Positions 22,736-38,833 of a DNA stretch of 64,000 nt are shown one piece after another. The DNA lies in assembly GCA_021604865.1 (NCBI GenBank), contig BQJU01000028.1:1-64000 (forward strand), in the 5' to 3' direction. The notes below the pieces were generated by a model. That model ran no database searches, was not told the origin of the DNA, and worked only from the letters and a program-made list of their open reading frames with translations. Positions within the stretch are counted from its first letter, which is position 1. Every line of letters begins with the position of its first letter. Origin of the DNA: Saprospiraceae bacterium. GTDB lineage: Bacteria; Bacteroidota; Bacteroidia; Chitinophagales; Saprospiraceae. A program made the position numbers and the translations under genes.

Positions 22736-24067
22736 TTATAAAACCAAGGTCACGACCGTTCCCTCTCCCTCCACGGATTGCACCTCGATACTGCCTTTAT
22801 GGACCTGCATGATTTGGCGGGAGAGGCTAAGGCCAATACCGGAACCTTGTTCCTTAGTCGTAAAAAAGGGCACAAAAATCTGCTCCATCATTTCGGGAGA
22901 AATGCCCTGGCCATTGTCAACAACTTGGATAAGGATTTTGCCGCCTACATTTTGTTGAAGGTGAATATGAACCTGACCATCATCGCCTTTGCTTTTGACG
23001 GCATCCATAGCATTTTTTATCAAGTTGATCAATACTTGTTGCAAAAGATTAGGGTCTCCATGAAAAGTAGGGGAGCTGGTGGGCAGATGAAAGGTGAGTG
23101 GCACGTGTTTGGCTTCGGCTTCCGCCAAAAACAGGGTTTCCATTTCTTCGAGCAGTTGATTGCCGTCGATCAATTGGAAATTCGGTGGCGGAATACGGGT
23201 CAGGCTGCGGTAGGTCTCTGTAAATCCTAAAAGCCCTTCGCTACGCCGCTGGATAACACTTAGCGAATTGCGCACCATTTTTAAGGTATCCTTTTCAATC
23301 TCTTCTTTCTGACCGATGACATCGTGAAGCGTAGAACTCAAAGAAGCGATGGGCGCTACTGAATTCATGATTTCGTGGGTCAAAATGCGGATCAACTTTT
23401 GCCAGGCTACCAATTCCTGTTCCTCAAGTTCGCTTTGGATATTTTGAAAAGAAATCAAGCGCAGGTGTTGCTTGTTCATATTCAATTCCACAGCTTGTAC
23501 GGCCAATTGCAGGAGTTTATTATCAATATTGATTTTGATAAGTTCGCGTTGACCGGCTTGAATATTCTGGATCGTTCGAAACAGGGTTTCATCTACCTTT
23601 TCCAGACTACTAACGTTGACCAGATAGGATTTGTGGATCAGCTTTTGCATGGTTTTATTTAACAAAATCACATCCCCTTCATCACTCAGGCAAAGCAGGC
23701 CAATATCAACATGTTCTACCACTGTCTGTAGAAACTGATGGTTGGCTTCCTTCTCCGCCCGGATATCCTGAAATTTACGATTGATCAAATTAAAACCATC
23801 GTGCAATTCGCCGAAGGATTCCCCTTTGTGGCGGGCCGTCCCGGTACTCGTGAAATCGTTGTAATTGATGCTCTCAAAAAAATGTGCCAGGTCACGGTTT
23901 GTTTGGTCAACATAATAAAACAGACTGAAAACAGTAACGATCAATAAAAGACCGGCAAATCCGGTAGTTAAAAAAAACTCCTGGTAAAAACTGAAAACCA
24001 TGGTTCCGACCAGTAACATCAAAATGCCAAGCCTGACGACGATATTAATCTTGAAGTTGTATAACAT
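22736..24067 (-). CDS. NtrB/NtrY-like sensor histidine kinase
   Basis: The 443-residue protein has two N-terminal transmembrane helices (about 8-48). A coiled linker and a PAS-like domain (about 105-200) lead to the HisKA helix with His231 in LTHEIMNSVAPIASL. The HATPase domain has NLIKNAMDAVKSKG, VVDNGQGISPEMMEQIF and FFTTKEQGSGIGLSLSRQIM. It lies 104 bases downstream of, and on the same strand as, the sigma-54 response regulator, its obvious partner. The very short periplasmic loop suggests it senses a membrane or cytoplasmic cue, perhaps envelope stress handled by the divergent ABC cluster; that is inference. Confidence 0.93.
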   Translation of the reverse strand: MLYNFKINIVVRLGILMLLVGTMVFSFYQEFFLTTGFAGLLLIVTVFSLFYYVDQTNRDLAHFFESINYNDFTSTGTARHKGESFGELHDGFNLINRKFQDIRAEKEANHQFLQTVVEHVDIGLLCLSDEGDVILLNKTMQKLIHKSYLVNVSSLEKVDETLFRTIQNIQAGQRELIKINIDNKLLQLAVQAVELNMNKQHLRLISFQNIQSELEEQELVAWQKLIRILTHEIMNSVAPIASLSSTLHDVIGQKEEIEKDTLKMVRNSLSVIQRRSEGLLGFTETYRSLTRIPPPNFQLIDGNQLLEEMETLFLAEAEAKHVPLTFHLPTSSPTFHGDPNLLQQVLINLIKNAMDAVKSKGDDGQVHIHLQQNVGGKILIQVVDNGQGISPEMMEQIFVPFFTTKEQGSGIGLSLSRQIMQVHKGSIEVQSVEGEGTVVTLVL

Positions 24068-24171: not shown

Positions 24172-25548
24172 TTAAAGATCATACTTTGCCAGCCTCCGGT
24201 ACAATGCTGCCCGGGTTAGTCCGAGTTCTTCGGCAGCTTTAGAGATGTTGCCGGCATGTTTAGTCAGGGCTTTCCGAACCGCCCAAGCTTCGATTTCGGC
24301 CAGATTATAATTGGAAAAACTGTGTTCAGCCTTGCCGTTTTGTTCTCTGGACTGCAAGATGAAATCGGAAATTTCCAGCTCCTCCGTTTCACTCAATATT
24401 ACGGCCCGTTCCACAGCATGTCGCAATTCCCGGATATTGCCAGGCCATTCGTATGCTTGCAATGCTTTCATGGTTGCCGACTGAACCCTAAGCAGGGGTT
24501 TTTGGTATTTTTTGGAATATAAAGTCCTGTAATGATCCACCAATGCGGGGATATCCTCTTTGCGGTCCCGCAATGCAGGGAGTTTGATCTCGACAGTATT
24601 GATTCGATACAACAAATCCTGGCGGAAAGAATGCTCACCGATCATATCATACAACGGCATGTTTGTCGCACAGATCAACCGGATATCTACAGGGATGGAT
24701 TCGTTGGAACCGACTTTTCGGATTTGACGATTTTGTAATACGGTTAGCAATTTGGCCTGTAAGGGAAGAGATAGGTTCCCGATTTCATCCAGGAAAAGAC
24801 TACCGCTAGAAGCAACTTCAAAACGACCGGTGCGGTCTTCGCGAGCATCTGTAAAAGCGCCTTTTTTGTGGCCAAATAACTCGCTTTCAAACAAACCTTC
24901 TGGAATAGCACCCAAATCAACACTGATGAATACGGATTTTGACCTGTCTGATTGCCGGTGTATAGCTCTGGCAATGAGCTCCTTACCTGTTCCGTTTTCT
25001 CCCAGAATCAAGATGTTGGCATCCGTTTTTGCGACCTTATCAATTATGCTAAAAACCTGCTTCATAGCACCAGAGGTACCAATAATATCACCATAACCCT
25101 GATCGAGTTCGCTAGTCAGGATTTGTTGTTTCATTTCCAGCTGCTCGACTTGTTTGCGAGAGCGACTCAACTCTAATGCTGCAAAGATGGTGGTCAGCAA
25201 TTTTTCATTGCGCCATGGTTTTTCAATAAAATCCACTGCTCCGGCTTTTACCGCAGTAACCGCCGTTTTTACATCTGCATAGGCAGTGATCATGATGACA
25301 CTGGCATTGGGTTTTAGTTCAATTATTTTTTTGAGCCACATCATGCCATCTTCACCACTGGTATCTCCTTTTTTGAAATTCATATCCAGGAGAATGAGGT
25401 CATAATTCTGATTGCGTAGCAGCCGTGGTAACTGATAAGGATTATTTTCCGTATCTACCCGTTCAAAGTGCTGGGAAAGATACAACTGCATACTCAGTAG
25501 GATATCCTCTTCGTCATCAACAATTAGAATGCTGGCGTTTTGTTTCAT
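24172..25548 (-). CDS. sigma-54-dependent NtrC-family response regulator
   Basis: The 458-residue protein has a receiver domain with Asp55 (LILLDMNFKKGD). The AAA+ domain has Walker A GENGTGKELIARAIH near 180, Walker B GSLFLDEIGN, and an R-finger region. The Fis-type HTH is at about 415-458 (AAEELGLTRAALYRRLAKYDL). The sigma-54 contact loop reads GAFTDA instead of GAFTGA, a variant seen in other activators. It lies upstream of its kinase and divergent from the efflux operon. Two palindromes and a -24/-12 element lie in the shared 229-base intergenic region. The same set recurs at 37851-37969, so this protein probably drives both promoters. Confidence 0.95.
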   Translation of the reverse strand: MKQNASILIVDDEEDILLSMQLYLSQHFERVDTENNPYQLPRLLRNQNYDLILLDMNFKKGDTSGEDGMMWLKKIIELKPNASVIMITAYADVKTAVTAVKAGAVDFIEKPWRNEKLLTTIFAALELSRSRKQVEQLEMKQQILTSELDQGYGDIIGTSGAMKQVFSIIDKVAKTDANILILGENGTGKELIARAIHRQSDRSKSVFISVDLGAIPEGLFESELFGHKKGAFTDAREDRTGRFEVASSGSLFLDEIGNLSLPLQAKLLTVLQNRQIRKVGSNESIPVDIRLICATNMPLYDMIGEHSFRQDLLYRINTVEIKLPALRDRKEDIPALVDHYRTLYSKKYQKPLLRVQSATMKALQAYEWPGNIRELRHAVERAVILSETEELEISDFILQSREQNGKAEHSFSNYNLAEIEAWAVRKALTKHAGNISKAAEELGLTRAALYRRLAKYDL

Positions 25549-25603: not shown

Positions 25604-25640
25604 TGTTCGTTTTTGAACACCTATTGTTCAAATCTGAACA
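25604..25640. promoter_or_regulatory. paired enhancer sites for the NtrC-like regulator (set 1)
   Basis: Two palindromes of the form TGTTC-N6-GAACA lie at 25604-25619 and 25625-25640, with centres 21 bp apart, two helical turns. The same pair, with the same 21-bp spacing, is found at 37851-37887. The distance from the second site to the sigma-54 element is 66 bp in both places. Confidence 0.85.
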
Positions 25641-25706
25641 ACTTTGGCGATTATAGTGATAACGCGGTATTGCTTAAAGTGTTGTAATTCAGTTGATTGA
25701 AATTTG

Positions 25707-25722
25707 TGGCATGCCCCTTGTA
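25707..25722 (+). promoter_or_regulatory. sigma-54 (-24/-12) promoter of the adaptor/ABC operon
   Basis: TGGCATGCCCCTTGTA matches TGGCAYR-N4-TTGCW at 15 of 16 positions, the difference being T for C in the -12 box, with the required GG/G spacing. It lies 55 bases before the ATG at 25778 and downstream of two enhancer palindromes. Confidence 0.85.
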
Positions 25723-25777
25723 GAGCTTGAGTTAAGAAATCACCCGAATTTTTAGTTTTAGATAAATTTTTTTGAAC

Positions 25778-27034
25778 ATGACAATGGATCGCAAGATAGA
25801 AAGTAAAACCTGGACTTGGCAAAGAATCACTTTGGGGGTGGTTGCCATAGGTGCAGTGTTTTTCTTGTTGACTGCTATTTACCGTGATGCTGGTGTTTCC
25901 CGCCTGAATGTGGAAATGGAACGTTTATTGGTGGATACTGTAAATTCCGGAGTATTCAAAGAATACATTACACTATTTGGAGTTGTGGAGCCGATTAAGA
26001 CCGTTTACCTGGATGCCGTAGAAAGTGGTAAAGTAGAAGAAGTCTTTGTTGAAAATGGAGCATTTGTAGAAAAAGATCAACAGATTATGCGCCTTTCCAA
26101 CCTTGAGCTACAATTGAACGTCCTGAATCAGGAGGCACAAATTGTAAACCAGATCAATGATATTCGCCAAACGAGTATCTTAATGGAGCAGCAAAGCCTG
26201 AACTTGAAGGAAGAGGCCCTTGATGTTACTTATCGTATTGATCTATTGGGCAAAAGAACTGACCGGAGTGCAAAATTGTACAAGGATAGTGTCATTTCAG
26301 AGGTAGAATTCCAGGAAACACAAGACGAATACGAACACCTGCTGCGCCGTAATAAATTGCTGCAAGCTACGATTGAAAAGGATTCTCTTTTTCAGGTTAT
26401 GCAAACCAATCAGATGGCCACAACCCTTGATTTGATGCAACGGAACCTTGAATTTGCCAGAAACAGTCTGGGAAATCTAACGGTTAGAGCACCGATCAGC
26501 GGCCAACTGTCTTCCTTGGATACCGAACTTGGTGAGTTGATCAGCCGTGGCGACCGCATTGCTCAAATCGATATCCTGGAAAACTATAAAATTCGGGCGC
26601 GTATTGATGAATTTTATATTTCCCGGATTTTCCCTCAGCAGGAAGGCAACTTCACCATGAATAATCAAGAGTATACCCTGAGAATTCACCGCATTTATCC
26701 CGAAGTAGTCAATGGATCATTTGATGTAGATATGGTCTTTGTGGGTAAAAGCCCCGATAACATCAAACGTGGACAGACAATTTCACTGAAGTTATCTCTC
26801 AGCGATGATACCCAGGCCAGACTCTTGGCTAAAGGAGGATTTTACCAGTCTACCGGAGGAAAATGGGTCTATGTGTTAAGTAGTGATGGCAAAACGGCCA
26901 GAAAACGAAGCATTGTAGTGGGCCGCCAGAACCCCAACTATTACGAGGTATTAGAGGGGCTAGATGATGACGATATTGTTATTGTCTCCAGCTATGAAAA
27001 CTACGGCGATAAGGACGAATTAGTGCTTAAATAA
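25778..27034 (+). CDS. HlyD/RND-type periplasmic adaptor subunit of an efflux system
   Basis: The 418-residue protein starts at the ATG at 25778; a TTG two codons earlier (25772) is possible. One transmembrane helix (about residues 20-38) anchors it in the inner membrane. A barrel/lipoyl half (VYLDAVESGKVEEVFVENGAFVEKDQQIM) is followed by a long coiled-coil hairpin (about 95-230). The return strand TVRAPISGQLSSLDTELGELISRGDRI closes the lipoyl domain before the C-terminal barrel and membrane-proximal domain. It is the MacA-like partner of the ATPase and permeases behind it. No outer-membrane TolC gene is present in the window. Confidence 0.93.
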   Translation: MTMDRKIESKTWTWQRITLGVVAIGAVFFLLTAIYRDAGVSRLNVEMERLLVDTVNSGVFKEYITLFGVVEPIKTVYLDAVESGKVEEVFVENGAFVEKDQQIMRLSNLELQLNVLNQEAQIVNQINDIRQTSILMEQQSLNLKEEALDVTYRIDLLGKRTDRSAKLYKDSVISEVEFQETQDEYEHLLRRNKLLQATIEKDSLFQVMQTNQMATTLDLMQRNLEFARNSLGNLTVRAPISGQLSSLDTELGELISRGDRIAQIDILENYKIRARIDEFYISRIFPQQEGNFTMNNQEYTLRIHRIYPEVVNGSFDVDMVFVGKSPDNIKRGQTISLKLSLSDDTQARLLAKGGFYQSTGGKWVYVLSSDGKTARKRSIVVGRQNPNYYEVLEGLDDDDIVIVSSYENYGDKDELVLK

Positions 27035-27052
27035 TAAAAAAAACACAATGCC

Positions 27053-27118
27053 ATGCAGCGATTAATTCTGGATATTGTCATTATTATATTACTCGGTCTG
27101 TTACCGATACTTTTATAA
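27053..27118 (+). CDS. putative 21-residue hydrophobic membrane peptide
   Basis: An ATG at 27053 opens a 21-codon frame ending at TAA 27116-27118. The peptide begins MQRLILDIV and is otherwise almost all Ile, Leu, Val, Gly and Pro, enough for one short membrane helix. It lies between the adaptor and the ATPase and is tightly placed in the operon. A small subunit or regulator of the transporter is conceivable. Chance cannot be excluded, because an AT-rich gap of this size can give such a frame. Confidence 0.4.
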   Translation: MQRLILDIVIIILLGLLPILL

Positions 27119-27195
27119 AAGATGAATAGACTTGATACCCGACTTATCAAGTATGATTTCTAAACCAAGGCCATCAAACAACAAGTATTACCATT

Positions 27196-27888
27196 ATGAT
27201 TCGGATTGAAAAACTTAAAAAAGTGTACCGTACGGAGGATGTGGAAACCACTGCCCTCAACGAGGTAGACATCACCATCAATCAAGGCGAATTTGTCTCA
27301 ATTATGGGACCTTCAGGTTGTGGAAAGTCTACCTTGCTGAATATTCTCGGACTCATTGACAACCCATCTGGTGGAGCCTACCACTTTTTAGATCATGAAG
27401 TCTCCAAATATTCCGAGCGTCAGCGTTCCATGTTGCGAAAAAACAACATTGGTTTTATCTTCCAAAGCTTTAACCTAATTGACGAATTGACGGTGTTTGA
27501 AAACGTCGAGTTGCCACTGATTTATACCAAAGTCAGTTCCCGCGACCGCAAGACCCGCGTGGAAGAAGTATTGGAACGCATGAACATGATGCATCGCCGT
27601 AATCACTTTCCTCAGCAGTTGTCTGGTGGTCAGCAGCAAAGGGTTGCTGTAGCACGGGCTATTGTTAATAACCCGAAGATTATCCTGGCGGATGAGCCTA
27701 CGGGAAATTTGGATAGTGCCAATGGTAATGATGTGATGAAAACACTGGTACACCTCAATGACGAGGGCGCTACGATCATCATGGTTACGCACTCTCAATT
27801 TTGTGCCGAGTTTGGCAACCGCATCATCCGCATGCTGGATGGGCAGGTTGTTACGGAAAACCTGCTTTCCAAAGCTGCCAGGTTGTAA
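27196..27888 (+). CDS. ABC transporter ATP-binding protein (MacB/LolD class)
   Basis: The 230-residue nucleotide-binding subunit has Walker A GPSGCGKST (residues 38-46), a Q-loop in FIFQSFNLIDELTVFENV, signature LSGGQQQR, Walker B IILADEPTGNLD and an H-loop in IIMVTHS. The N-loop TTALNEVDITI and the overall length are those of the MacB/LolD/FtsE group, which powers mechanotransmission rather than substrate passage through the membrane. It follows the adaptor and precedes four separate FtsX-type permeases, any of which could dimerise on it. Confidence 0.96.
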   Translation: MIRIEKLKKVYRTEDVETTALNEVDITINQGEFVSIMGPSGCGKSTLLNILGLIDNPSGGAYHFLDHEVSKYSERQRSMLRKNNIGFIFQSFNLIDELTVFENVELPLIYTKVSSRDRKTRVEEVLERMNMMHRRNHFPQQLSGGQQQRVAVARAIVNNPKIILADEPTGNLDSANGNDVMKTLVHLNDEGATIIMVTHSQFCAEFGNRIIRMLDGQVVTENLLSKAARL

Positions 27889-27971
27889 TATTACAAGTCC
27901 GGTTTTTCCATTCATTACTGATGATTTGCTGAACTGTAAGCGGTTTACCTGGCATTGCTATGTTTTAAAAC

Positions 27972-27997
27972 CACTATCCTCTCGAAAACGGATAGTG
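27972..27997 (+). other. 8-bp perfect hairpin between ATPase and first permease
   Basis: CACTATCC and GGATAGTG pair around a ten-base loop, 46 bases before the permease start. No T-run follows, so this is more likely an RNA processing or attenuation structure than a terminator. It could set different expression levels for the ATPase and the permeases. Confidence 0.4.
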
Positions 27998-28043
27998 ATT
28001 AATCTCGCTTCCCTTTATTCTAAAATTTTTATACGCAAAAAGG

Positions 28044-30443
28044 ATGATTTACAATATTCTTAAAATAGCCTACCGGAATATCTTAAAAAGGAAGCTTTTT
28101 TCGGCAATCAATGTGATTGGCCTTGCGGTGGCAATGGGGGTTAGTTTATTGTTGTTGCTCACTGTTTTTCATCAGTTTTCCTTTGACAATTTCCATAAAA
28201 ATGGCGACCGGATTTATCAGGTCTATAATGTTACGAATCATTCATCCGGCATTGCCAAGGGAGCCACACAGGCCAGTCCATTAAAAGAGGCACTAGAAAG
28301 TGAAATGCCGGAATTGGAGCATGTCATGCGTTGGTCTAGTGGGCCTGCCTCCATTAAATATGAAGGCGATATAATAGAATCTAGTATCCGCTTTACCGAT
28401 GCCAACTTTTTTGAAATGTTTTCTTTTCAGCTATTGGAAGGAACACCTAACCAGGTATTGGCCAATTTGAATACCGTAGTCTTGTCTGAAAAGACCGCAG
28501 CCAAAGTATTCGGTGAGGAAAACCCTATAGGCAAAACCATTACCCTCAATATTGCTGGCAAAGCCTACCGGATGGAGGTTAGTGGTTTGGTGGAAGATGA
28601 ACCCAACAATTCTTCGCTGCATTACAACATGATTACCCGATTTGAAAATCACCCGGATTACCAGGATAATAAAGACAATTTTGACAATCAGTTCCTAGGC
28701 ATGTTTGTGCAATTGCCGCCGACATTAAGCCAACAAGAAGCGGAAGAAAAACTAAAAGGAGTTGTACACAAATATAGGAATGATGAAATTGAACAATTGC
28801 AAAAAGATGGCGCCCAGCCTGATGTGGAAGGAGAGGTTTACAGCTTAAAATTGCTCCCCCTAAACGATTTGCATTTTGATACTGAAATCACTGGAAATGG
28901 TATTAGTATTGCCCTGCCAATGGGTTTGTTGATTATTGCTTTTTTTATCCTTGTCATTGTCTGTATCAACTTCATCAACCTGACCATTGGTACTGCACTC
29001 ACCCGAGCTAGGGAAGTAGGGGTGAGAAAAGTATTAGGAGCGACTAAACGACAACTGATCAGTCAATTTTTTGGAGAGGTTAGCCTGTTGATTTTTGTCG
29101 CGCTGTTTTTAGGCCTTATTTTAGCCCAATTTGGCCTGGCAGATTATAACCAGCTCTTTCGGCAAAAGATTAGTTTGTATAACCCTACGCTTATTTTTGC
29201 TATTGGATCTATCCTTGTTTTTGTCGGCCTTATTGGTGGCAGTTACCCGGCATTGGTACTCTCCCGGTTCCAACCGGCTTCAGTACTCAAAGGTAGCACC
29301 TCGGTACAAAAGCCGGGAAAATTGCGCAACATTCTGGTGTTGCTACAATTCACCCTATCTGTATTTCTGATCATTTGTACGATGATTGTTTGGAATCAAA
29401 TTGATTATTTGCGTTCTAAACCACTCGGCTATTCAAAAGAAGATGTGATCAGCATACCCATTGGCAATGAGTTGGACAGTTATCAGGTTTTGCAACGCAT
29501 GCGCAATGAGCTGGCAGCTAATCCGAATGTGAAAAGCATTACCGGCAGTTATGGAAATCTGGGCATGGGAAAAGATGGTTCCCGGACTACCTCAATCATG
29601 GGCTTCTCACAAGGCGATCGTTTACTTAGGACGCATTGGGCTGTAGTTGATTACGATTATTTTGAAACCCTTAATATCCCCTTGGTGGAAGGCCGTAGTT
29701 TTTCACCTGAATTTCCAACGGACAGTAGTGAATCCATAATTATCAATGAGACTTTTGCCCGTCAATTGGGAGAAGATTCCCCCATTGGAACCGTATTAGA
29801 TTTGGGGCCAGACCGCAAAGTCATTGGCGTCGTCAAAGATTATCACTTTTTACCGCTTGATAAAGCCATGGAGCCGCTTTCTTTGGTGCTGGCCAAACCC
29901 ATTGATGACTTCCGGTTGGGCTACATTTTTGTTAGTGTGAGCAATCGTACGGCAATGAGCAACCTGGAAGAAACCTGGAAAAAGCTCTACCCGGAAACTA
30001 TATTTCAGGCCACTTTTCTGGATGAAAATAATCAACGACAATACCAGGTTGAGGAGTCTATTGCCAAGTTGTTTACTACTTCCGGACTTCTAGCCATTAT
30101 ACTCTCTTGTATGGGATTATTCGGCGTAGTCGTTTTGGTAACGAGCCAACGTACAAAAGAAATCGGTATCCGAAAAGTACTTGGCGCATCGGTGCCTAGT
30201 ATTGTCGGCCTTATCTCTAAAGAATTTATTCTGCTGGTTGCTATTGCCATAGTTATAGCAGCCCCAATGGGCTGGTGGCTGATGAAACAATGGCTGCAAT
30301 CCTATGCTTATAGTATTGATTTTCCCTGGTGGAGTATCCCACTAGCCGGTATAATGGCGATTCTGATTGCCGTGGTTACACTAGGTATACAATCCGTACG
30401 TGCCGCCCTCACTAACCCTATTGACGCATTGAGGGACGAGTAG
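28044..30443 (+). CDS. FtsX/MacB-type ABC permease 1 (tandem-domain)
   Basis: The 799-residue inner-membrane protein has an N-terminal helix (~20-42), a large periplasmic MacB-like domain and a three-helix block near 290-400. The first coupling motif is REVGVRKVLGATKRQLISQFF. A fifth helix near 430 and a second periplasmic domain follow, then a final three-helix block with the coupling motif TKEIGIRKVLGASVPSIV. It is therefore two FtsX units fused in one chain, as in other Bacteroidota and in the ADOP permeases of Acidobacteria. It is probably mechanically driven by the ATPase upstream to act on a periplasmic or outer-membrane substrate. It ends in the clade-typical ANP-like tail ALTNPIDALRDE. 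Confidence 0.93.
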   Translation: MIYNILKIAYRNILKRKLFSAINVIGLAVAMGVSLLLLLTVFHQFSFDNFHKNGDRIYQVYNVTNHSSGIAKGATQASPLKEALESEMPELEHVMRWSSGPASIKYEGDIIESSIRFTDANFFEMFSFQLLEGTPNQVLANLNTVVLSEKTAAKVFGEENPIGKTITLNIAGKAYRMEVSGLVEDEPNNSSLHYNMITRFENHPDYQDNKDNFDNQFLGMFVQLPPTLSQQEAEEKLKGVVHKYRNDEIEQLQKDGAQPDVEGEVYSLKLLPLNDLHFDTEITGNGISIALPMGLLIIAFFILVIVCINFINLTIGTALTRAREVGVRKVLGATKRQLISQFFGEVSLLIFVALFLGLILAQFGLADYNQLFRQKISLYNPTLIFAIGSILVFVGLIGGSYPALVLSRFQPASVLKGSTSVQKPGKLRNILVLLQFTLSVFLIICTMIVWNQIDYLRSKPLGYSKEDVISIPIGNELDSYQVLQRMRNELAANPNVKSITGSYGNLGMGKDGSRTTSIMGFSQGDRLLRTHWAVVDYDYFETLNIPLVEGRSFSPEFPTDSSESIIINETFARQLGEDSPIGTVLDLGPDRKVIGVVKDYHFLPLDKAMEPLSLVLAKPIDDFRLGYIFVSVSNRTAMSNLEETWKKLYPETIFQATFLDENNQRQYQVEESIAKLFTTSGLLAIILSCMGLFGVVVLVTSQRTKEIGIRKVLGASVPSIVGLISKEFILLVAIAIVIAAPMGWWLMKQWLQSYAYSIDFPWWSIPLAGIMAILIAVVTLGIQSVRAALTNPIDALRDE

Positions 30444-30506
30444 AGGGAAGGAATTTTTCATGCTAAACCTGCTCTGAATACAGCGTCATCTGATAAACCT
30501 CTAATT

Positions 30507-32861
30507 ATGCTAAGGAACTATTTATTGACAAGTTTGCGTAATCTATACAAAAACAAACTCTATACAATAGTCAATTTGTTAGGTCTGACTATAGGTTTGA
30601 GTTGTGTAATGTTGATCAGTCTATGGATTCTGGAGCAATATTCCTTTGATAATTTCCACCCCAATGGTGATCGAATCTATCGAGTTTTGGAAAACCAATA
30701 CTATTCAGATGGGTTTGTATTGACCACTTCAGCTACACCAGGACAGTTGGCCGCCTCACTAAAAACGAATTGGCCGGAAATTGCGCTTAGTTCCCGGGTT
30801 ACCTGGGGTGACGAAAAGTTGTTTAAAGTAGACAACAAGGTGTTTAAAGAAAAAGGATATCACGCTGATCCTGATTTTTTGCGCATTTTCAATTTTCCGG
30901 TAATAGCCGGTGAAGGTGCAGATGCTTTGGAAGAACCCGGAAAGATTTTGATCACCACCAAAATGGCAGAAAAGTATTTTGGCCATACGGATGTGGTGGG
31001 GCAAATGATCAGAGTGGACAACGAAAGAGAGGTTCAGATAGCGGGGGTGATGGCTGATGTGCCGGACAATACTTCTTTTAAATTTGACTTTCTCTTACCC
31101 TTAAAGGATTACGAAAAAAATAATGATTGGCTAAAAAACTGGAATAGTAATGGCATCCGGACCTTCCTGATGACTACGCCCCAATCTCCCAACCTAAACG
31201 AGATCCCTGATTTAAAGGAATACCTCAAGACGGTGTCTGATCAGGATAATGCGGATTTATTATTCCAGGGATTGGCCGATATGTATCTCCGGTACGACTA
31301 CAAGGATGGTAAATATCAGGGTGGTGGACGTATTACCTATATCCGTCTTTTTGCTATTATCGCCTTGTTTATTATCCTTATTGCCTGCATTAATTTTATG
31401 AACTTATCCACGGCAAGAGCGAGTACCCGTACCAAAGAAGTGGGCATCCGCAGGGTGTCGGGAGCCACACGTGGTATGTTGATCCGACAGTTTCTGGGGG
31501 AGTCACTGTTGCTCAGCATTTTTGCCGGCGTTTTTGCGGTCGTCCTTGTGCAGCTCAGCTTACCAGCTTTTAATGAACTTTTTGATGCACATATCTATCT
31601 CGATTTTTCAAAAGTCGGCGTATGGAGCCTATTGTTGGGCATCACCTTATTAGCCGGTTTTCTGGCGGGTAGTTACCCAGCATTTTTTCTGTCTCGTTTT
31701 CAGCCTATTGAAATTTTTAATAAGCTTGGCAAGCAAGGCAAAGGAGCCAACTGGTTTCGGAAAGGGCTGGTGGTTACCCAATTTGCCATAGCTACTTTCC
31801 TGATTGTTGGCACCATGGTGATTTATTTGCAAATGAATCATATTCGCCACCAGAATCTGGGTTTCCAGAAGGAGAACTTTATTTACATGCCTGTTAATGG
31901 TACATTATGGGATAAATATGACTTGGTGAAAACTGAGCTGACCAATTTACCCGGTGTTCAATCGGTTTCGGCCTCCAATGGATTGATCTATCAATGGGGC
32001 AACAACACTTCTTCGGTAAGCTGGCCGGGCAAAGATCCGGAGGCGAGTATTTTGTTTCAAACCATTCCCGTAGAATTGGACTTTATGGAAACGATTGGGG
32101 CTGACTTGGTAGATGGCCGTGATTTTTCGGCTGCATTCCCTGCTGACTCCACCAATTTTATCGTCAATGAAAGAGCCGCAGAGATGATGGGCCTCCAACA
32201 AGCGGTCGGAGAAAGGATTACCGTACAAGGGGACGAAGGACAAATTATTGGCATGGTTAAAAATTTTAGAACCAATTCCCTGCATGTTGAACAGGAACCG
32301 GTCATTCTAATGCATCGCCCCTGGAAGAACTTTATTTTTGCCCGTTTGAATACTGATGATACCCAACAGACTCTAGGGCAAATTGAAAAGATACTGGCTA
32401 CTCACAATCCAGCCTATCCCTTTGAATTTTCTTTTGTGGATAAAGAATACGAAAAACTATACCGCACGGAAGCTAGAGTAGGTACTTTGTCCCGGCTGTT
32501 TGCCATCCTTTCCATTTTTATTTCCTGTTTGGGTCTCTTTGGCCTGGCAACTTTTACAGCCCAGCAACGAACCAAAGAAATTGGCATTCGTAAAGTAATG
32601 GGTGCTTCCATTTCTCAGCTTTCTACTTTGCTCTCCGGAGAATTTTTAAAACTCGTCATCGTCGGGTTTGTTATTGCTGCTCCTGTGGCTTGGTTGGTGA
32701 TGCATGATTGGCTGGAACGTTTCGTAAGTCACATTGAACTCTCGTGGTGGATTTTTATCATGGCAGCAGTTTTGTCCATCAGTATTGCCTTACTGACCAT
32801 CAGCCTGCAAACCATTCGTGCTGCTTCGATCAATCCGGTGAAAGCATTGCGCTATGAGTAA
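30507..32861 (+). CDS. FtsX/MacB-type ABC permease 2
   Basis: The 784-residue paralogue of the preceding permease has an N-terminal helix (~20-43) and a periplasmic domain starting DNFHPNGDRIYRVLE. The first membrane block carries TKEVGIRRVSGATRGMLIRQFL near 310; the second carries TKEIGIRKVMGASISQLSTLL near 690. The tail is ASINPVKALRYE. It starts 63 bases after the previous stop. The spacing and orientation are consistent with one long transcript from the sigma-54 promoter at 25707. Confidence 0.93.
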   Translation: MLRNYLLTSLRNLYKNKLYTIVNLLGLTIGLSCVMLISLWILEQYSFDNFHPNGDRIYRVLENQYYSDGFVLTTSATPGQLAASLKTNWPEIALSSRVTWGDEKLFKVDNKVFKEKGYHADPDFLRIFNFPVIAGEGADALEEPGKILITTKMAEKYFGHTDVVGQMIRVDNEREVQIAGVMADVPDNTSFKFDFLLPLKDYEKNNDWLKNWNSNGIRTFLMTTPQSPNLNEIPDLKEYLKTVSDQDNADLLFQGLADMYLRYDYKDGKYQGGGRITYIRLFAIIALFIILIACINFMNLSTARASTRTKEVGIRRVSGATRGMLIRQFLGESLLLSIFAGVFAVVLVQLSLPAFNELFDAHIYLDFSKVGVWSLLLGITLLAGFLAGSYPAFFLSRFQPIEIFNKLGKQGKGANWFRKGLVVTQFAIATFLIVGTMVIYLQMNHIRHQNLGFQKENFIYMPVNGTLWDKYDLVKTELTNLPGVQSVSASNGLIYQWGNNTSSVSWPGKDPEASILFQTIPVELDFMETIGADLVDGRDFSAAFPADSTNFIVNERAAEMMGLQQAVGERITVQGDEGQIIGMVKNFRTNSLHVEQEPVILMHRPWKNFIFARLNTDDTQQTLGQIEKILATHNPAYPFEFSFVDKEYEKLYRTEARVGTLSRLFAILSIFISCLGLFGLATFTAQQRTKEIGIRKVMGASISQLSTLLSGEFLKLVIVGFVIAAPVAWLVMHDWLERFVSHIELSWWIFIMAAVLSISIALLTISLQTIRAASINPVKALRYE

Positions 32862-32868
32862 GTAGCAC

Positions 32869-32912
32869 GGGCATATTTGGAGGCCAATTAAGCCCTGGCC
32901 TCCAAATATGGT
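32869..32912. repeat. MITE/REP-like element, family E (copy E5, minimal)
   Basis: GGGCATATTTGGAGGCC and GGCCTCCAAATATGG form an almost perfect hairpin around a short spacer, starting eight bases after the permease 2 stop. It keeps only the ends of the larger family members. In the transcript it would fold into a stable stem inside the permease operon. Confidence 0.75.
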
Positions 32913-32915
32913 ATA

Positions 32916-32997
32916 AGAGTTGTTTCGCAGGGGCCACGACAGGGTTAAAACGGATGCCATAGTTTTTCCCATCGCCCTGCCCCTGCGTAACAACTCT
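32916..32997. repeat. inverted-repeat element, family F (copy F1)
   Basis: The arms at 32916-32934 (AGAGTTGTTTCGCAGGGGC) and 32979-32997 pair at 18 of 19 positions around a 44-base interior (beginning CACGACAGGGTTAAAACGG). The left half is closely similar to 45925-45965. It fills the space between permeases 2 and 3. The open frame of permease 3 runs back through it, which is why the longer start there is rejected. Confidence 0.7.
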
Positions 32998-33012
32998 ATT
33001 AAATTCCCGACT

Positions 33013-35385
33013 ATGTTGCAAAATTATTTCAAGGTTGCTTACCGGCATTTCTGGAAGCACAAAGTACACCTCCTGATTAATGTGCTGGGGCTAGGCATAG
33101 CGCTGGCTAGTTGTGTTATTGCATACCTTAGCTGGAAGTTTGATCACGACTTTGATCATTTTCATACCCGAGGGGAACAGATCTTCCGCGTGGTCAGTAT
33201 CAAGAAGGATAATCTTCAGGCTTTTGGCGTTTGTCCGGCTCCCTTGGCGGCGGCAGCTAAGGCAGAAGTAAGTGGGGTACAGGATGCCCTGATCCTGGAA
33301 TTTCGCAATGCCGTCATCAGTAATGGTAAGGACACAGACCGGGAGCGTATCTCTTTTACAGAAAATGCTTTTTTTGAATGGTTCGACTTCCCCTTGCTTA
33401 GTGGACAGATCAGGTTGGATGATGCGGCTACTGCGGTAATTTCTGAAGCACTGGCCATTAAATATTTCGGAACCTCCGACCCAGTAGGTCAAATCTTGAC
33501 CATCTATCCTGATCAGCCGTTCCAAAAACAGTTGCTGATCACGGGATTGCTCAAAGATACACCGGTCAATTCCAGCATCCAATATGAGCTGTTGACCAGT
33601 GTAGAAAATATGTATAACCGGGATAATGCACAAGTCAATTTAAAAGATTGGACCTATCTGACCGATGCCACTTTCCTGATGCTGAAAAACCCGGAAGACC
33701 AGGAACGCGTAAGTCGATATCTGGAAGCTTACCTACCTGTTCAAAATCAGATGCATAGCGATTGGCAGATTGAAAAATTTGCACTGCAACCTCTAAATAC
33801 GATGGCCCATCATGCGGATGATTTGCGCTGGAATGCCTTAGGGCAGAGCCTGCCACCATCAATGGTTTGGGGAATGACCCTTATGGGTATTTTATTGCTA
33901 CTGACTGCCAGCCTGAATTTTACCAATATGTCCATCAGCCTTTCCGGGCGCAGGCTAAAAGAAATAGGAGTCAGAAAGGTGATAGGCGGAAGTCGTAAGC
34001 AATTAATTTGGCAGCTTTTGATGGAGGGCTTGTTGATTAGTTTAATTGCGTTGGGTGTGGGTTTACTATTCACGGATTGGTTATTACCCAGGTACAACCA
34101 GATGTGGACTTTTGTTGACTTACACCTGGTTTTTACCCAAAACCTGCCTTTAGTTGCTTTCCTTATAGCGGTTTTATTGACGACCACATTTATTGCCGCA
34201 GCCTATCCCGCATTTTACATCAGTGGATTTAATCCTACAGGTATTTTCAGAGGCAAGGTTAAATTTGCCGGAGCCAATCTTTTTTCCAAAATATTACTCG
34301 GCGCACAGGTGGGCATATCCACGATTGCCCTGGTGGCAGGTTTTGCTTTTACCCGGAATGCTGAATTTCAAAAAAATGCCGATATAGGATTTCAACGGGA
34401 AGGCATCCAGGCGATTCGCATACCGGACGAACAAACGTTTCGAGTGATGGAGGCTAATGCCCGTCAGCATCCGCAAGTGCAGGCTGTAGCCGGCGTCCGT
34501 TTTCATATCGGAGATTCCGCGCCACGCATTGAAGTGAAATTCAAGGATAAAAAACAAGAGGTAGAGTTTATGCCTGTCGGTGAAAACTACCTGGAGGTTA
34601 TGGATATTCAACTGCTGAGCGGCAGGAGCTTTGATTACCAATTGTCTACCGACTTTACTGAAAGTATTTTGATCAATGAAAAATTTGCCGATCTCTATTT
34701 TCAGGATGGGGATCCTCTGGGCCAGCAATTGACCCTTTTTGATACCCTTCGATACAATGTTGTTGGCGTGGTCAAAAATTTTATTCAGGATAATTTTCAC
34801 GATCCGATCCGTCCTTTGGTGCTGACATTGACTAAGCCGGACCGTTTTGGTTATCTGGTCATCAAAACTCAGTCTGCCGATATGCTTGAGGTAAGGGATC
34901 ATCTAAGTGTAGCCTGGAAAAAGGACTTTGCGCAAATGCCTTTTGAACATTACTTCCAGGATGATTTTTTGGCCAGTTCCCTGAAAACGAATACCAATAT
35001 CCAGTATATTTTTTCTGTATTTGCACTTATCGCTTTGTTGTTGTCCATGACCGGTCTGAATTCACTGGTTTCTCTCAACCTATTGAAACGACTCAAAGAA
35101 GTAACTATCCGACGCATTCTTGGTGCCCGTCCGTCGCAAATAGCTTATTTGTTGAGTGCTCACTTTTTAATTGTAGCCTTTATCGGTCTAGCTGTTGGCG
35201 GCTTAATTGGGCTAAAGCTTTCAGAGATGTTATTGAACAGCATTTATCAGGTGCACGTTGGGGTCACTTATTTTTCACTTTTGGTAGCCGGGATCGTAGT
35301 GGTTATCGTTGCTTTTCTGACGATTAGCAGGAGCATTGTTCAGGCCATTACTGCCAATCCTTCGGATGCTTTAAATAATGATTAA
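33013..35385 (+). CDS. FtsX/MacB-type ABC permease 3 (diverged)
   Basis: The start is set at the ATG at 33013 (MLQNYFKVAYRHFWKHK). The frame extends to 32920, but that extension lies in a repeat and would put about 30 polar residues before the membrane anchor. The product has 790 residues with the same tandem FtsX layout. Its coupling motifs are unusual: RRLKEIGVRKVIGGSRKQLIWQLL in the first half and KRLKEVTIRRILGARPSQIAYLL in the second. In the other permeases the second motif is TKEIGIRKVLGAS. The tail is TANPSDALNND. It may therefore couple to the ATPase differently or partner with a different permease. Confidence 0.9.
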   Translation: MLQNYFKVAYRHFWKHKVHLLINVLGLGIALASCVIAYLSWKFDHDFDHFHTRGEQIFRVVSIKKDNLQAFGVCPAPLAAAAKAEVSGVQDALILEFRNAVISNGKDTDRERISFTENAFFEWFDFPLLSGQIRLDDAATAVISEALAIKYFGTSDPVGQILTIYPDQPFQKQLLITGLLKDTPVNSSIQYELLTSVENMYNRDNAQVNLKDWTYLTDATFLMLKNPEDQERVSRYLEAYLPVQNQMHSDWQIEKFALQPLNTMAHHADDLRWNALGQSLPPSMVWGMTLMGILLLLTASLNFTNMSISLSGRRLKEIGVRKVIGGSRKQLIWQLLMEGLLISLIALGVGLLFTDWLLPRYNQMWTFVDLHLVFTQNLPLVAFLIAVLLTTTFIAAAYPAFYISGFNPTGIFRGKVKFAGANLFSKILLGAQVGISTIALVAGFAFTRNAEFQKNADIGFQREGIQAIRIPDEQTFRVMEANARQHPQVQAVAGVRFHIGDSAPRIEVKFKDKKQEVEFMPVGENYLEVMDIQLLSGRSFDYQLSTDFTESILINEKFADLYFQDGDPLGQQLTLFDTLRYNVVGVVKNFIQDNFHDPIRPLVLTLTKPDRFGYLVIKTQSADMLEVRDHLSVAWKKDFAQMPFEHYFQDDFLASSLKTNTNIQYIFSVFALIALLLSMTGLNSLVSLNLLKRLKEVTIRRILGARPSQIAYLLSAHFLIVAFIGLAVGGLIGLKLSEMLLNSIYQVHVGVTYFSLLVAGIVVVIVAFLTISRSIVQAITANPSDALNND

Positions 35386-35396
35386 ATTTTTTACTC

Positions 35397-37850
35397 ATGT
35401 GGAAAAACTATCTAAAGATCGCCTTTCGGAATCTATTTAAGGAGAAGCTGAATAGCTTCATTAATTTATTTAATCTATCAGTTGCCATTACTGTCGTTTT
35501 GCTCATTTTTTTATTTGTAAAAGACGAGTGGTCCTTTGACCATTTTCACAGCAAATCTGACCGGATTTACCGCAATTGGGTAAAGGAACACTACCAGGGA
35601 GAGGTTTTTTTTAATACTGTTACCCCCTTTATCCTTGGAGAGGAATTGAAGGAAAATCTTCCCGAGGTCGAATCGGTGGTGCAATACCTCACACAAACCA
35701 ATGTTGTTCGGAAAGGCACTTTTAAAGATCAGGAAACCATTCATCTGGCTACTCCTTCCCTGTTAGAGGTGTTTGATTTTTCTTTGCTCAAGGGAGAACC
35801 AGACCAGGTGTTAGATAGCCCTAATAAAGTAGTGCTTAGTCCAGAAATTGCTCAAAAATATTTTGGTGATGCAGACCCCACAGGAGAGAGCCTTGATTTG
35901 CAGCTAGGTGGCGAGTGGCGGCAGTTTCAGGTCTCGGGCATCATTAAGCCGGCACCTCAGCATTCCAGTATTCAATACGATATGCTCATTGCCTTTGAAA
36001 ATGTCAAACAGCTGTTCCGGCCAGGAGCTCTAGTGAGCTGGACTACGGTTTATCCGGAAACTTATGTATTGCTTAGACCGGGAACTGATTTGGCTTCGCT
36101 TAGCGCAAAAACAGCCAGCCTGATTGACTCCAAAGTCACCGAATCCTATGCACCGGGTGAATATATTGTTGGGTATCAACCGCTGACTGACATTCATTTA
36201 AATAATGAAATTCCAGTAGGGATTGTGGCGGTCAGTGATTGGCGTTATCCCTATATTTTGGGAGCCATTGGCTTGTTAATTCTGTTGCTGGCAGGTATCA
36301 ATTATGTTTCTTTATCGGTTGGGCAGTCGTTGACCAGAGCCCGCGAAGTAGGGGTGCGCAAGGTAAATGGTGCCAACCGGATGCAATTGATGGTGCAATT
36401 TTGGAGCGAGACGATTTTTTTGACGGTCCTTGCTGTATTCATTGGTTTTATGTTGACTAATGTCGTTTTGCCCTATTTTAACCAACTGGCGGGTAAATCG
36501 TTAGTTTTAGAAATTGACTTTTCCATCTTTTTATTCATCGTATTGTTGACTATCGTATTGGGCCTAGCAGCAGGTTTGTACCCCGCTTTGGTATTATCCG
36601 GCTTCAGTCCATTGAAGACCCTTTACGGCAAGGTGAACAAACTTGGAACCAGCAAACATTTTTTACTGCGAACCTTAGTCGGTTTTCAGTTTGTATTGTC
36701 GGTCGGTTTGATTATTTGCACCTATATCATGCAGGAGCAAATGCAGTATTTACAAAATAAAAACCTGGGTTTTGACAAGGACCAGCTGATTAGCATTCCG
36801 TATCTGGCTACTCCAACCGCCGAAAAAGGACTGATATCGTTGTACAAAGAAGGTTACAAAAAAGGCCAGCTGTTGCAGAATGAGTTAGCGGATGAACGGG
36901 AAGTACTTGGTTTCGCAATAAGTTCACATACTTTTGGCACGCCAGGATGGGTGCAGGTTGGTTATACGGATGAAGCCATTGATAAATACCGGGGATTTTA
37001 TCTCTTGGCTACCGATTACAATTTCCTGCCGGTTATGGAGGTTGGTATGAAGCAAGGCCGTCATTTTAGTGAGGAGACGGCTACCGATATTCAGGGAGGC
37101 GTTATCGTCAATGAAACAATGGCCAAAACTTTTGGTTGGGAAGATTATCTGGATACACCCTTACCCCCACCTTTTGAAGGCTTTCGACTAATCGGGATTA
37201 CTGAGGATTTTAATTTTTCCTCTCTGCGCGAAGAAGTACAACCCCTTTTAATGACGTTGGACCCATTAGCCATCATTGGCTTAATGTCTGATATGAATTA
37301 TGGGGATTTGCCGCTCCCCAAGTATACCCTAAAACTCGAAGGAGGGAATATTCCTTATACTTTGGGTAAGATAGAACAGGCCTGGCGCAAGTTAGCTCCA
37401 GACCAGCCATTTCAGTTTTCCTTTATTGATGAAGCTATTAATGCTCAATATCGGTCGGAACAATCACTCAGTAGCATTCTATCCTTTGCGACTTTACTGG
37501 CCATCGTTATTGCTGCACTTGGACTTTTTGGGATAGCTAGTATAACTGCTGCCCGCAGAACGAAGGAGATCGGTATCCGTAAAGTATTAGGGGCTTCTGT
37601 TTTGGATATTGTTTTGATGTTGAACCGTCATCTCACCGGATTGGTGGTGGTGGCAACCCTTATTGCTGCCCCATTATCCTGGCTGATTATGCGAAGCTGG
37701 TTGAAGGATTTTGCCTTTCAGGTGGGCATCAATCCGATTACCTTTGTTATTGCCGGCTTGTTGGCCCTTGCTATTGCCTGGGTGGCCGTAAGTTTCCAGG
37801 CTTTTCGTGCGGGCATGGCTAGTCCAGTGGATAGTTTGCGCAGTGAATAG
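35397..37850 (+). CDS. FtsX/MacB-type ABC permease 4
   Basis: The 817-residue tandem-domain permease starts 11 bases after the preceding stop. It has an N-terminal helix (~20-42), then a periplasmic domain from WSFDHFHSKSDRIYRNW. The first membrane block has AREVGVRKVNGANRMQLMVQF; the second has TKEIGIRKVLGASVLDIVLML. The tail is MASPVDSLRSE. It is the last gene of the first transcription unit: the stop TAG (37848-37850) directly touches the first enhancer palindrome of the next promoter. Confidence 0.93.
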   Translation: MWKNYLKIAFRNLFKEKLNSFINLFNLSVAITVVLLIFLFVKDEWSFDHFHSKSDRIYRNWVKEHYQGEVFFNTVTPFILGEELKENLPEVESVVQYLTQTNVVRKGTFKDQETIHLATPSLLEVFDFSLLKGEPDQVLDSPNKVVLSPEIAQKYFGDADPTGESLDLQLGGEWRQFQVSGIIKPAPQHSSIQYDMLIAFENVKQLFRPGALVSWTTVYPETYVLLRPGTDLASLSAKTASLIDSKVTESYAPGEYIVGYQPLTDIHLNNEIPVGIVAVSDWRYPYILGAIGLLILLLAGINYVSLSVGQSLTRAREVGVRKVNGANRMQLMVQFWSETIFLTVLAVFIGFMLTNVVLPYFNQLAGKSLVLEIDFSIFLFIVLLTIVLGLAAGLYPALVLSGFSPLKTLYGKVNKLGTSKHFLLRTLVGFQFVLSVGLIICTYIMQEQMQYLQNKNLGFDKDQLISIPYLATPTAEKGLISLYKEGYKKGQLLQNELADEREVLGFAISSHTFGTPGWVQVGYTDEAIDKYRGFYLLATDYNFLPVMEVGMKQGRHFSEETATDIQGGVIVNETMAKTFGWEDYLDTPLPPPFEGFRLIGITEDFNFSSLREEVQPLLMTLDPLAIIGLMSDMNYGDLPLPKYTLKLEGGNIPYTLGKIEQAWRKLAPDQPFQFSFIDEAINAQYRSEQSLSSILSFATLLAIVIAALGLFGIASITAARRTKEIGIRKVLGASVLDIVLMLNRHLTGLVVVATLIAAPLSWLIMRSWLKDFAFQVGINPITFVIAGLLALAIAWVAVSFQAFRAGMASPVDSLRSE

Positions 37851-37887
37851 TGTTCGATAATGAACACTTCCTGTTCAGAAATGGACA
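37851..37887. promoter_or_regulatory. paired enhancer sites for the NtrC-like regulator (set 2)
   Basis: TGTTC-N6-GAACA at 37851-37866 and TGTTC-N6-GGACA (one mismatch) at 37872-37887 have centres 21 bp apart, exactly as at 25604-25640. They begin immediately after the permease 4 stop codon and lie 66 bp before a sigma-54 element. Confidence 0.85.
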
Positions 37888-37953
37888 AAAATAGCTAGGT
37901 GAATCATTTGGAAATTGTTTTTAAAACACTGATATTCAGTGGTGTATAATTAA

Positions 37954-37969
37954 TGGCATAGATATTGGT
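37954..37969 (+). promoter_or_regulatory. sigma-54 (-24/-12) promoter of the second ABC unit
   Basis: TGGCATAGATATTGGT fits TGGCAYR-N4-TTGCW except for the last two bases of the -12 box. It lies 23 bases before the ATG at 37993 and at the same distance from its enhancer pair as the promoter at 25707. Confidence 0.75.
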
Positions 37970-37992
37970 TTATTAGGTAAAAAAAGCAATCA

Positions 37993-38697
37993 ATGATAAA
38001 ATTAATCGACCTCGAAAAATCTGTAAGGACTGGCTTGAATAGAGCCTGGATTCTCAATCAGGTCAATCTGGAAATTAAGGCCGGCGAATTTGTCACCATA
38101 ATGGGGCCAAGTGGAGCAGGGAAAACGACTTTGCTAAATATCATCGGTATGCTGGAATCTCCTACGGGAGGCGAGTATCACTTTCTTGACGAGCCGGTAC
38201 ACCGCCTCAATGAGCGTAAACGGCACGACATCCACAAACAATATATGGGTTTCGTTTTCCAGGCTTATCATCTGATTGATGATTTGACGGTTTATGAAAA
38301 CATTGAAACACCCCTGTTATACCGCAATGTAAAGGGGAAAGACCGGAAAAGCATCGTGGCAGATATTCTGGACCGATTCAGCATTGTCGCCAAAAAAGAC
38401 CTGTTTCCCGATCAGTTGTCTGGTGGTCAACAGCAATTGGTTGGCGTGGCCCGGGCCGTGATCCACAAACCCAGACTATTGCTGGCTGATGAGCCTACTG
38501 GCAACTTACATAGCAAACAAGGGGAAGAGATCATGGAATTATTCCGCGAACTCAATGAAGAAGGCGTGACCATCATCCAGGTAACCCATTCCGAAAAGAA
38601 TGCTGAATATGGAAGCCGCATTATTGAAATCGTAGACGGGAATATCCGTACTGATGAACAAGTTCGAAAATCTGCCAGTGTTTACGGCACAAAATAA
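37993..38697 (+). CDS. second ABC transporter ATP-binding protein (MacB/LolD class)
   Basis: The 234-residue ATPase has Walker A GPSGAGKTT (residues 38-46), FVFQAYHLIDDLTVYENI, signature LSGGQQQLVGVARAV, Walker B LLLADEPTGNLH and H-loop QVTHSEKN. It is a paralogue of the ATPase at 27196, with L for R after the signature and N-L-H in place of N-L-D after Walker B. It starts a second transcription unit with two permeases and has its own copy of the sigma-54 control region. Confidence 0.95.
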   Translation: MIKLIDLEKSVRTGLNRAWILNQVNLEIKAGEFVTIMGPSGAGKTTLLNIIGMLESPTGGEYHFLDEPVHRLNERKRHDIHKQYMGFVFQAYHLIDDLTVYENIETPLLYRNVKGKDRKSIVADILDRFSIVAKKDLFPDQLSGGQQQLVGVARAVIHKPRLLLADEPTGNLHSKQGEEIMELFRELNEEGVTIIQVTHSEKNAEYGSRIIEIVDGNIRTDEQVRKSASVYGTK

Positions 38698-38783
38698 AAA
38701 CTGACCCGACAGTCACTAAAAGTAAAAAAAGAAATCACCGAATTTTTAAAATCAACCACCCGACAAAACCCATTTAAGGAAGG

Positions 38784-38833
38784 CTCAACAGTTTCGGTTT
38801 TATAATCATTCTATGAATCCGGGAACTGTTGAG
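38784..38833 (+). other. 10-bp inverted repeat in the gap before permease 5
   Basis: CTCAACAGTT (38784-38793) and AACTGTTGAG (38824-38833) are perfect complements, extended inward by CGG/CCG across a small bulge. The structure lies in the 313-base gap between the second ATPase and permease 5. No gene or clear promoter was seen in the rest of that gap, which contains a short direct repeat of TTTGGCGG near 38930-38945. Confidence 0.5.

Follow-up and report, generated by a model that had tools for sequence, protein, structure and literature searches.

A candidate sigma-54 enhancer module shared by a split ABC exporter cluster and distant permease loci in a Saprospiraceae bacterium

Two-component activators of the NtrC, ZraR and AtoC kind, which combine a receiver domain, a sigma-54 AAA+ domain and a Fis-type helix-turn-helix (HTH) and act from tandem dimer sites that precede a -24/-12 promoter by about 100 bp, are close counterparts of a regulator encoded in the stretch of DNA described here, 64,000 nucleotides of contig BQJU01000028.1 of a Saprospiraceae bacterium (hereafter the window). 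The window regulator has the same domains, and its putative operator, a tandem pair of TGTTC-N6-GAACA palindromes followed at a set distance by a -24/-12 element, has the same layout and stands twice in the window, before each half of a split ATP-binding cassette (ABC) exporter cluster; it differs from these systems in that its predicted targets are exporter genes spread over many loci. NifA offers a further comparison: its published enhancer has the form TGT-N10-ACA, which the window palindrome contains, and likewise stands some 100 bp ahead of a sigma-54 promoter (PMC2820453). On the other hand, the window operator has extra fixed bases (TTCR...YGAA) and strict tandem pairing at 20-22 bp, and no nitrogen-fixation targets were seen for the operator described here. 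NifA carries a GAF domain where the window regulator has a receiver domain.

Among exporters, MacAB-TolC and DarABCDE have in common with the window cluster an HlyD adaptor, a MacB/DarD-like ATPase and MacB_PCD/FtsX permeases, whereas the window ATPases are separate from the permeases, which are internally duplicated (~800 amino acids) and present in many copies. In being full-length, in having two FtsX domains and in often lacking a nearby ATPase gene, these permeases resemble the acidobacterial duplicated orphan permeases (ADOP, TIGR03434); unlike in ADOP, part of the window-genome set has an operator in common with an ATPase-adaptor cluster. Some Bacteroidota genomes are rich in duplicated orphan permeases, for which no ATPase or substrate is known; two Dyadobacter genomes are reported to encode 28 and 33 of them, listed as of unknown function (PMC11573002). 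Closest to the present observations comes a 2025 survey, which reports at the COG level that sigma-54 promoters are enriched before COG0577 FtsX-like permeases in Bacteroidia; in its available part no activator, operator, regulon or ATPase-less loci are named (PMC12316311). The portion of PMC10434189 at hand contains nothing on the operator or regulon, and no earlier description of the operator, the regulator or the regulon was found in open-licence literature. Each component belongs to a known kind, and the way in which they are wired together is a new variation.

The whole module spans 25604-25722 before unit 1 (adaptor, ATPase 1, permeases 1-4) and 37851-37969 before unit 2 (ATPase 2, permeases 5-6; Table 1). 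We interpret it, with a probability of about 0.85, as a sigma-54 enhancer of a two-component system that would control both units and permease loci at a distance. In the mechanism we propose, the kinase would phosphorylate the NtrC-type regulator, dimers of which would bind both palindromes, two helical turns apart and centred ~110 bp before the expected start; the bound regulator would build an AAA+ assembly and remodel the sigma-54 polymerase waiting at the -24/-12 element, and a single activator could in this way turn on unit 1, unit 2 and permease loci on three other contigs. Transcription would be expected to start near 25733 and near 37980.

A preliminary description of this DNA had reported palindromes 21 bp apart and a -24/-12 element 66 bp further on in both places. 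Both spacings hold: the tandem palindromes recur at 21 bp start to start in both copies, three of the four exact and the one at 37872 with one mismatch, and exactly 66 bases separate the proximal palindrome from the -24 box (25641-25706 and 37888-37953). The promoter pattern given there, TGGCAYR-N4-TTGCW, stands in its -24 part (TGGCATG, TGGCATA) and fails in its TTGCW part, the -12 boxes reading TTGT and TTGG; set against GG-N10-GC, both elements have GG, followed by GT and GG where GC is expected. No -24/-12 element facing the regulator was found in the window, where the score on that side is 10 of 15.

To gauge chance, the reversed pattern served as a control and pairs were counted at 21-bp spacing. 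The window genome (G000; 7.97 Mb in 161 contigs, with the window on contig C28) holds five pairs at up to one mismatch (control 0), five at up to two (control 1) and seven at up to three (control 1). Exact single palindromes number 12 in the genome against 2 for the control, eight of the 12 being members of the five pairs, and at up to two mismatches single palindromes in the window alone are at chance level (31 against 31.8 expected): the signal resides in the paired geometry. Position 6 of the palindrome, which the search left free, is a purine in ~99% of rows (86 palindromes from 43 sites, both strands), so that the sites have more in common than the search pattern; the candidate operator consensus is TGTTCR-N4-YGAACA.

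A genome-searchable regulon had been predicted, and the scan returned five pair sites, each before exporter genes: the two in the window and three on contigs C18, C43 and C78 (Table 1). No relative of ATPase 1 or 2 was found in 20 kb around the C18 and C43 sites, nor anywhere on the 34.6-kb contig C78. TIGR03434 gives 33 matches in the genome, 27 of them strong (219-340 bits); none of the 33 passes the cut-off of 622.3, the best reaching 340 bits, and the permeases are therefore termed ADOP-like, with no claim of family membership. If the arrays are read through, 16 of the 27 strong permeases would lie downstream of the five operator promoters. The remaining 11 fall outside the predicted regulon, one of them upstream of the C78 site, and ten non-regulon permease loci have no operator within ~350 bp. 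Two looser matches, each with three mismatches, were rejected as regulon sites: C25:14782 has no exporter gene, and C47:33518 has no -24 element at the usual distance and adjoins only a permease-like C-terminal tail. The palindrome pair at this last site (L011 around 10019) looks decayed and is perhaps a relic of a lost permease locus. The preliminary description, in which the regulator activates both ABC units, receives computational support from the regulon, from co-occurrence and from -24/-12 phasing, and it underestimated the extent of the system, since the predicted regulon includes distant ATPase-less permease loci and the module recurs across the phylum.

For the promoter elements, the regions 30-110 bp to either side of each of 45 pair sites were scored for their best -24/-12 match, with a threshold of 12 of 15; eight sides facing a regulator or kinase were set aside. 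The set of 45 omits the G061 match, G020:C354 (three mismatches), all spacing-22 sites and L068, and L218 was entered as facing no target (long open frame), although a permease is present there. The threshold is reached by 39 of the 40 sides that face an adaptor, ATPase or permease gene, as against 8 of the 42 without a recognised target, several of which face a regulator or another gene. The offsets from operator to -24 box fall at 52-56 bp (21 cases), 65-67 bp (13), 62 bp (two) and 43, 78 and 100 bp (one each), the two main classes differing by about one helical turn. Their periodicity (resultant length 0.79 at period 11.5) was matched by none of 5000 random sets drawn over 40-80 bp, a null that ignores relatedness, and the 19 regulator orthologues with a pair (see below) show offsets of 53-55, 63-64 and 75-76 bp. 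Such phasing matches what an activator held on a fixed helix face would need. In the 39 promoters used for a logo, from which G005 and G304 had been left out beforehand, both Gs and the A of TGGCA are invariant and 37 have the C; at the -12 box the bases T, T and G occur in 38, 32 and 33 promoters respectively, bases that the scoring favoured, and the next base is G (13), C (11), A (11) or T (4).

The operator also recurs in related genomes. Among 60 genomes, the window's own included, pairs with up to two mismatches occur at 28 sites (5 in G000, 11 in G014, 3 in G020, 8 in G023 and 1 in G005), against five in total for the reversed control over those 60; 27 of the 28 lie in G000, G014, G020 and G023, the genomes whose regulator is 73-100% identical. 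Matches at G005:C40 and G304:C93 look like chance and were not accepted as operators. G014 mirrors the window plan (regulator, operator, HlyD, ATPase 1, permeases; operator, ATPase 2, permeases) and has eight more operator-bearing permease sites away from the cluster. In G023, ATPase 1 (C72) and ATPase 2 (C93) lie at separate places with an operator each, and in G020 a single operator, flanked on either side by a -24 element, separates a divergent kinase orthologue (60%) and permease. Since scattered parts keep operators of their own, the operator appears to follow the parts when the cluster breaks up. At C192:156400 of G014 (L189 around 3601), the operator, here with two -24 elements separated by 11 bp, precedes a gene for a 224-amino-acid secreted protein that has no Pfam match and may be a non-exporter target.

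Across 395 genomes of the phylum, pairs with up to one mismatch occur in 12 genomes at 21 places, with 0 for the control in every row listed. In every operator genome except G304, the site is accompanied by an exporter gene, the regulator or some other gene that has a -24 element; in G129 and G254 the gene at the operator encodes a DUF5694 or PF00144 protein. In two such loci, L223 (4218-5099, DUF5694) and L227 (5272-6396, PF00144, beta-lactamase fold), the operator lies upstream with a -24 element at 53-54 bp. The regulator was found at E 1e-125 or better in 86 of the 395 genomes, nine of which are among the 12 with an operator and 77 among the other 383 (Fisher p 9.5e-5, not corrected for relatedness), and in two of the three remaining operator genomes, G206 and G132, a regulator of 45% identity adjoins the operator. 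At 39 sampled regulator orthologues (L034-L043 and L229-L257), a pair with 20-23-bp spacing lies within 700 bp upstream in 19 cases, five of which (L235, L236, L239, L245, L246) come from one genus, and the reversed control gives 0 of 39. The spacing varies by lineage (20, 21 or 22 bp), and pairs also occur upstream of regulators just 45-60% identical. A kinase relative adjoins the regulator in many, not all, orthologous loci; none was seen beside the orthologue in G014, G018, G020 and Lewinella cohaerens. In the last of these (strain DSM 23179, locus L063), the regulator is 69% identical, and an operator with a -24 element precedes HlyD. A cluster of regulator (53%), kinase, adaptor, ATPase and permease also occurs in L070, a metagenome-assembled genome labelled Halieaceae (gammaproteobacterial), by either lateral transfer or misbinning.

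A third box accompanies many of the promoters. TGA-N3-TCA, with at least five of its six bases, is present in 18 of 27 lineage promoters (G000, G014, G020, G023 and G060 only), 11 of them exact; it begins 22-24 bp ahead of the -24 box, a distance that holds for either offset class. Over all 39 promoters, 11 exact copies compare with a mean of 0.24 and a maximum of 4 in 200 rounds of shuffled spacers. In six listed promoters of G346 and G338, which belong to another family, a CGC-starting sequence occupies this place (by eye). The third box may either bind a second factor or belong to an extended promoter. The two 66-base spacers in the window are alike well beyond the box, with 32 of 66 positions identical (shuffled mean 19.7, 32 reached in none of 2000 shuffles) and, with the box removed, 25 of 57 (mean 16.9, reached in 32 of 2000); a reading of these spacers as unrelated is ruled out by the 32/66 identity, and the two copies may descend from one.

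Whether the distant permeases work with the central ATPases bears on how the exporter functions. Relatives of ATPase 1 and 2 were sought 0.2-9 kb on either side of operator-permease sites, the window being skipped, and 25 of the 27 operator-permease sides outside the window have none in the stretch searched, which was short for some. The exceptions are G023 C72, with ATPase 1 across the operator, and G346 C50, with both ATPases after the permease; the window permeases, unlike the distant ones, adjoin two ATPases. In a tree of 41 hand-chosen permeases from two genomes, whose bootstrap had not settled and which left out the G014 operator permeases C101 and C163, border-cut cluster permeases and C78:13748, the distal ATPase-less permeases C78b and C43b are sisters (support 100/100 and 100/99) of permeases in the ATPase-bearing cluster of G014. 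One permease type thus lies beside ATPases in G014 and apart from them, under the same operator, in G000, from which we infer that scattered permeases may share the central ATPases and adaptor. Operator-controlled permeases do not form a single clade (7 changes against a shuffled mean of 9.8, with 8 of 500 shuffles as low; downstream array genes were counted as operator-controlled), nor does every relative of an operator-controlled permease keep the operator, G000_C98 being the counterexample. At least one KEIGIRKVLGA-type motif, which we take to be the ATPase-coupling region of the permeases, is present in 39 of the 41, with or without an operator. A broader proposal has, in our judgement, an even chance of being right: a hub-and-spoke exporter in which one adaptor and two ATPases would serve many interchangeable permeases, located in the hub or as scattered orphans, and which would be unified by one phase-locked sigma-54 enhancer, with a lineage-specific third box and phylum-wide recurrence.

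Several other explanations deserve consideration. Many dimeric regulators typically recognise palindromes of such a size, and a different DNA-binding protein, such as a repressor, could occupy them while the NtrC-type regulator acts elsewhere; the window palindromes are 56 bp away from the start of the regulator, a position that would also suit a repressor of the regulator itself, and the conserved third box suggests the possible involvement of a second factor. We find this unlikely, given that the pairs concentrate in genomes with a regulator orthologue, recur upstream of the most diverged regulators mentioned above and keep a phased distance to -24 elements, as expected of an enhancer. That the TGGCA element belongs to the phylum's housekeeping promoter instead of a sigma-54 promoter is very improbable. 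The housekeeping -33 box of Bacteroidota, TTTG, does resemble part of a TGGCA-type element, and many sites have a weak -12 box, yet the GGCA bases and the -12 TTG are largely kept over the 39 promoters, though scoring favoured them, the -24/-12 element strongly prefers the target-facing side, and the regulator has a sigma-54 interaction domain in a genome that encodes RpoN.

The two window copies might also represent nothing more than an old local promoter duplication without regulatory meaning, for which identical geometry 12 kb apart and the likeness of the 66-base spacers could be adduced. A shared origin of the copies is plausible. Shared origin is, however, compatible with function, several genomes have this geometry at unlinked positions ahead of the same kinds of genes, and the two-unit layout of G014 has operators before both HlyD and ATPase 2; duplication without meaning can hardly be the explanation. 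Far more serious is the possibility, to which we give somewhat less than even odds, that the regulon is real and that its distant permeases either need no ATPase or draw on other MacB-like ATPases of the genome. The window genome has 34 ATPase-like NF038007 matches, and 11 of the 27 strong permeases have no operator, orphan status being common among these; against it stand the sister relationships of C78b and C43b to G014 cluster permeases, the ATPases of G023, themselves scattered yet under the same operator, and the coupling motif kept by 39 of 41 permeases.

The interpretation as a sigma-54 enhancer bound by this regulator also has to accommodate a number of discordant observations. Some pairs face other genes (the 224-amino-acid secreted, DUF5694 and PF00144 proteins); many sites come from related genomes and hence are not independent; and 20 of the 39 regulator orthologues have no pair within 700 bp, 8 having a single palindrome and 12 none. 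The 22-bp pair form gives 5 sites against 4 controls over the 60 genomes, all four controls in one genome, and 22-bp spacing consequently rests mainly on position upstream of regulators. The window -12 boxes lack the usual GC, and, because the two spacers are alike, identical spacing counts for less as an argument when the window is taken by itself. Finally, C98, sister of G014_cl6 (support 99/96), has no recognisable operator while its G014 relative lies in an operator-controlled cluster; it either lost the operator or never had one.

The cluster itself is laid out in Table 1. Operator A sits between the adaptor and the divergent regulator, with the kinase behind the regulator, and operator B begins immediately past the stop codon of permease 4. 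The regulator passes the cut-offs of PF00072, PF00158 and PF02954, which places it by domain content in the NtrC family; its sigma-54 contact loop reads GAFTDA against GAFTGA, and it scores under the cut-off in each of the best 25 of 94 matched NCBIfam models (AtoC 376 of 714 bits). One rpoN gene over cut-off is present in the window genome (C39:58496-59977, 406.8 bits, cut-off 277). Adaptor, ATPase and MacB_PCD/FtsX permeases lie together in one cluster, as in MacAB-type systems; the curated darobactin exporter cut-offs are missed (DarC 206 of 450, DarD 289 of 375 and DarB 159 of 700 bits). The true start of the adaptor is probably the ATG at 25784 (MDRK), which matches upstream regions of related loci. 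Neither Rfam families nor tRNAs were found in scans of the window. The gap between ATPase 2 and permease 5 measures 313 bases (38698-39010) and contains no exact operator palindrome. An additional duplicated permease of 898 amino acids with an extra N-terminal stretch lies 8 kb past the cluster (51861-54557, + strand); it has no operator and falls outside the regulon.

Table 1. Coordinates of the operators, promoter elements and genes in the window, and of the operators on other contigs of the same genome.
Feature	Position	Strand	Remarks
Operator A, distal palindrome TGTTCGTTTTTGAACA	25604..25619	.	exact TGTTC-N6-GAACA
Operator A, proximal palindrome TGTTCAAATCTGAACA	25625..25640	.	exact TGTTC-N6-GAACA
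Third box TGTAATTCA	25683..25691	+	5 of 6 to TGA-N3-TCA; 24 bp before -24 box
-24/-12 element TGGCATGCCCCTTGTA	25707..25722	+	TGGCATG-N4-TTGTA; unit 1
Operator B, distal palindrome TGTTCGATAATGAACA	37851..37866	.	exact TGTTC-N6-GAACA
Operator B, proximal palindrome TGTTCAGAAATGGACA	37872..37887	.	1 mismatch to TGTTC-N6-GAACA
Third box TGATATTCA	37930..37938	+	24 bp before -24 box
-24/-12 element TGGCATAGATATTGGT	37954..37969	+	TGGCATA-N4-TTGGT; unit 2
Sensor histidine kinase, likely partner of regulator	22736..24067	-	HATPase_c 1.5e-26
NtrC-type response regulator (receiver, sigma-54 AAA+, Fis-type HTH)	24172..25548	-	Response_reg, Sigma54_activat, HTH_8
HlyD-type periplasmic adaptor	25772..27034	+	HlyD_3, RND_mfp
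MacB/DarD-like ABC ATPase 1	27196..27888	+	ABC_tran 9.5e-36; NF038007 289 bits, below cut-off 375
Permease 1, duplicated MacB/FtsX-type	28044..30443	+	MacB_PCD and FtsX, two stretches each
Permease 2	30507..32861	+	genome match to TIGR03434, E 5.7e-85
Permease 3 (start position assumed)	32992..35385	+	genome match to TIGR03434, E 9e-70
Permease 4	35397..37850	+	genome match to TIGR03434, E 4.2e-70
MacB/DarD-like ABC ATPase 2	37993..38697	+	ABC_tran 4.5e-33
Permease 5	39011..41395	+	MacB_PCD and FtsX
Permease 6	41462..43882	+	genome match to TIGR03434, E 3.5e-96
Distant operator	C18:83752		faces one permease; -24-like element on permease side
Distant operator	C43:49133		faces three permeases; -24-like element on permease side
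Distant operator	C78:30241		between permeases, faces array of ~6; -24-like element on array side

The operator ties part of an orphan permease set to a specific regulator, an adaptor and two ATPases, and thereby makes the engine, the signal and the function of these permeases testable. A candidate sigma-54 activator-operator pair that recurs across the phylum would be an aid to promoter annotation in Bacteroidota. If the hub-and-spoke arrangement is true, it would show which ATPase powers duplicated orphan permeases in part of the family.

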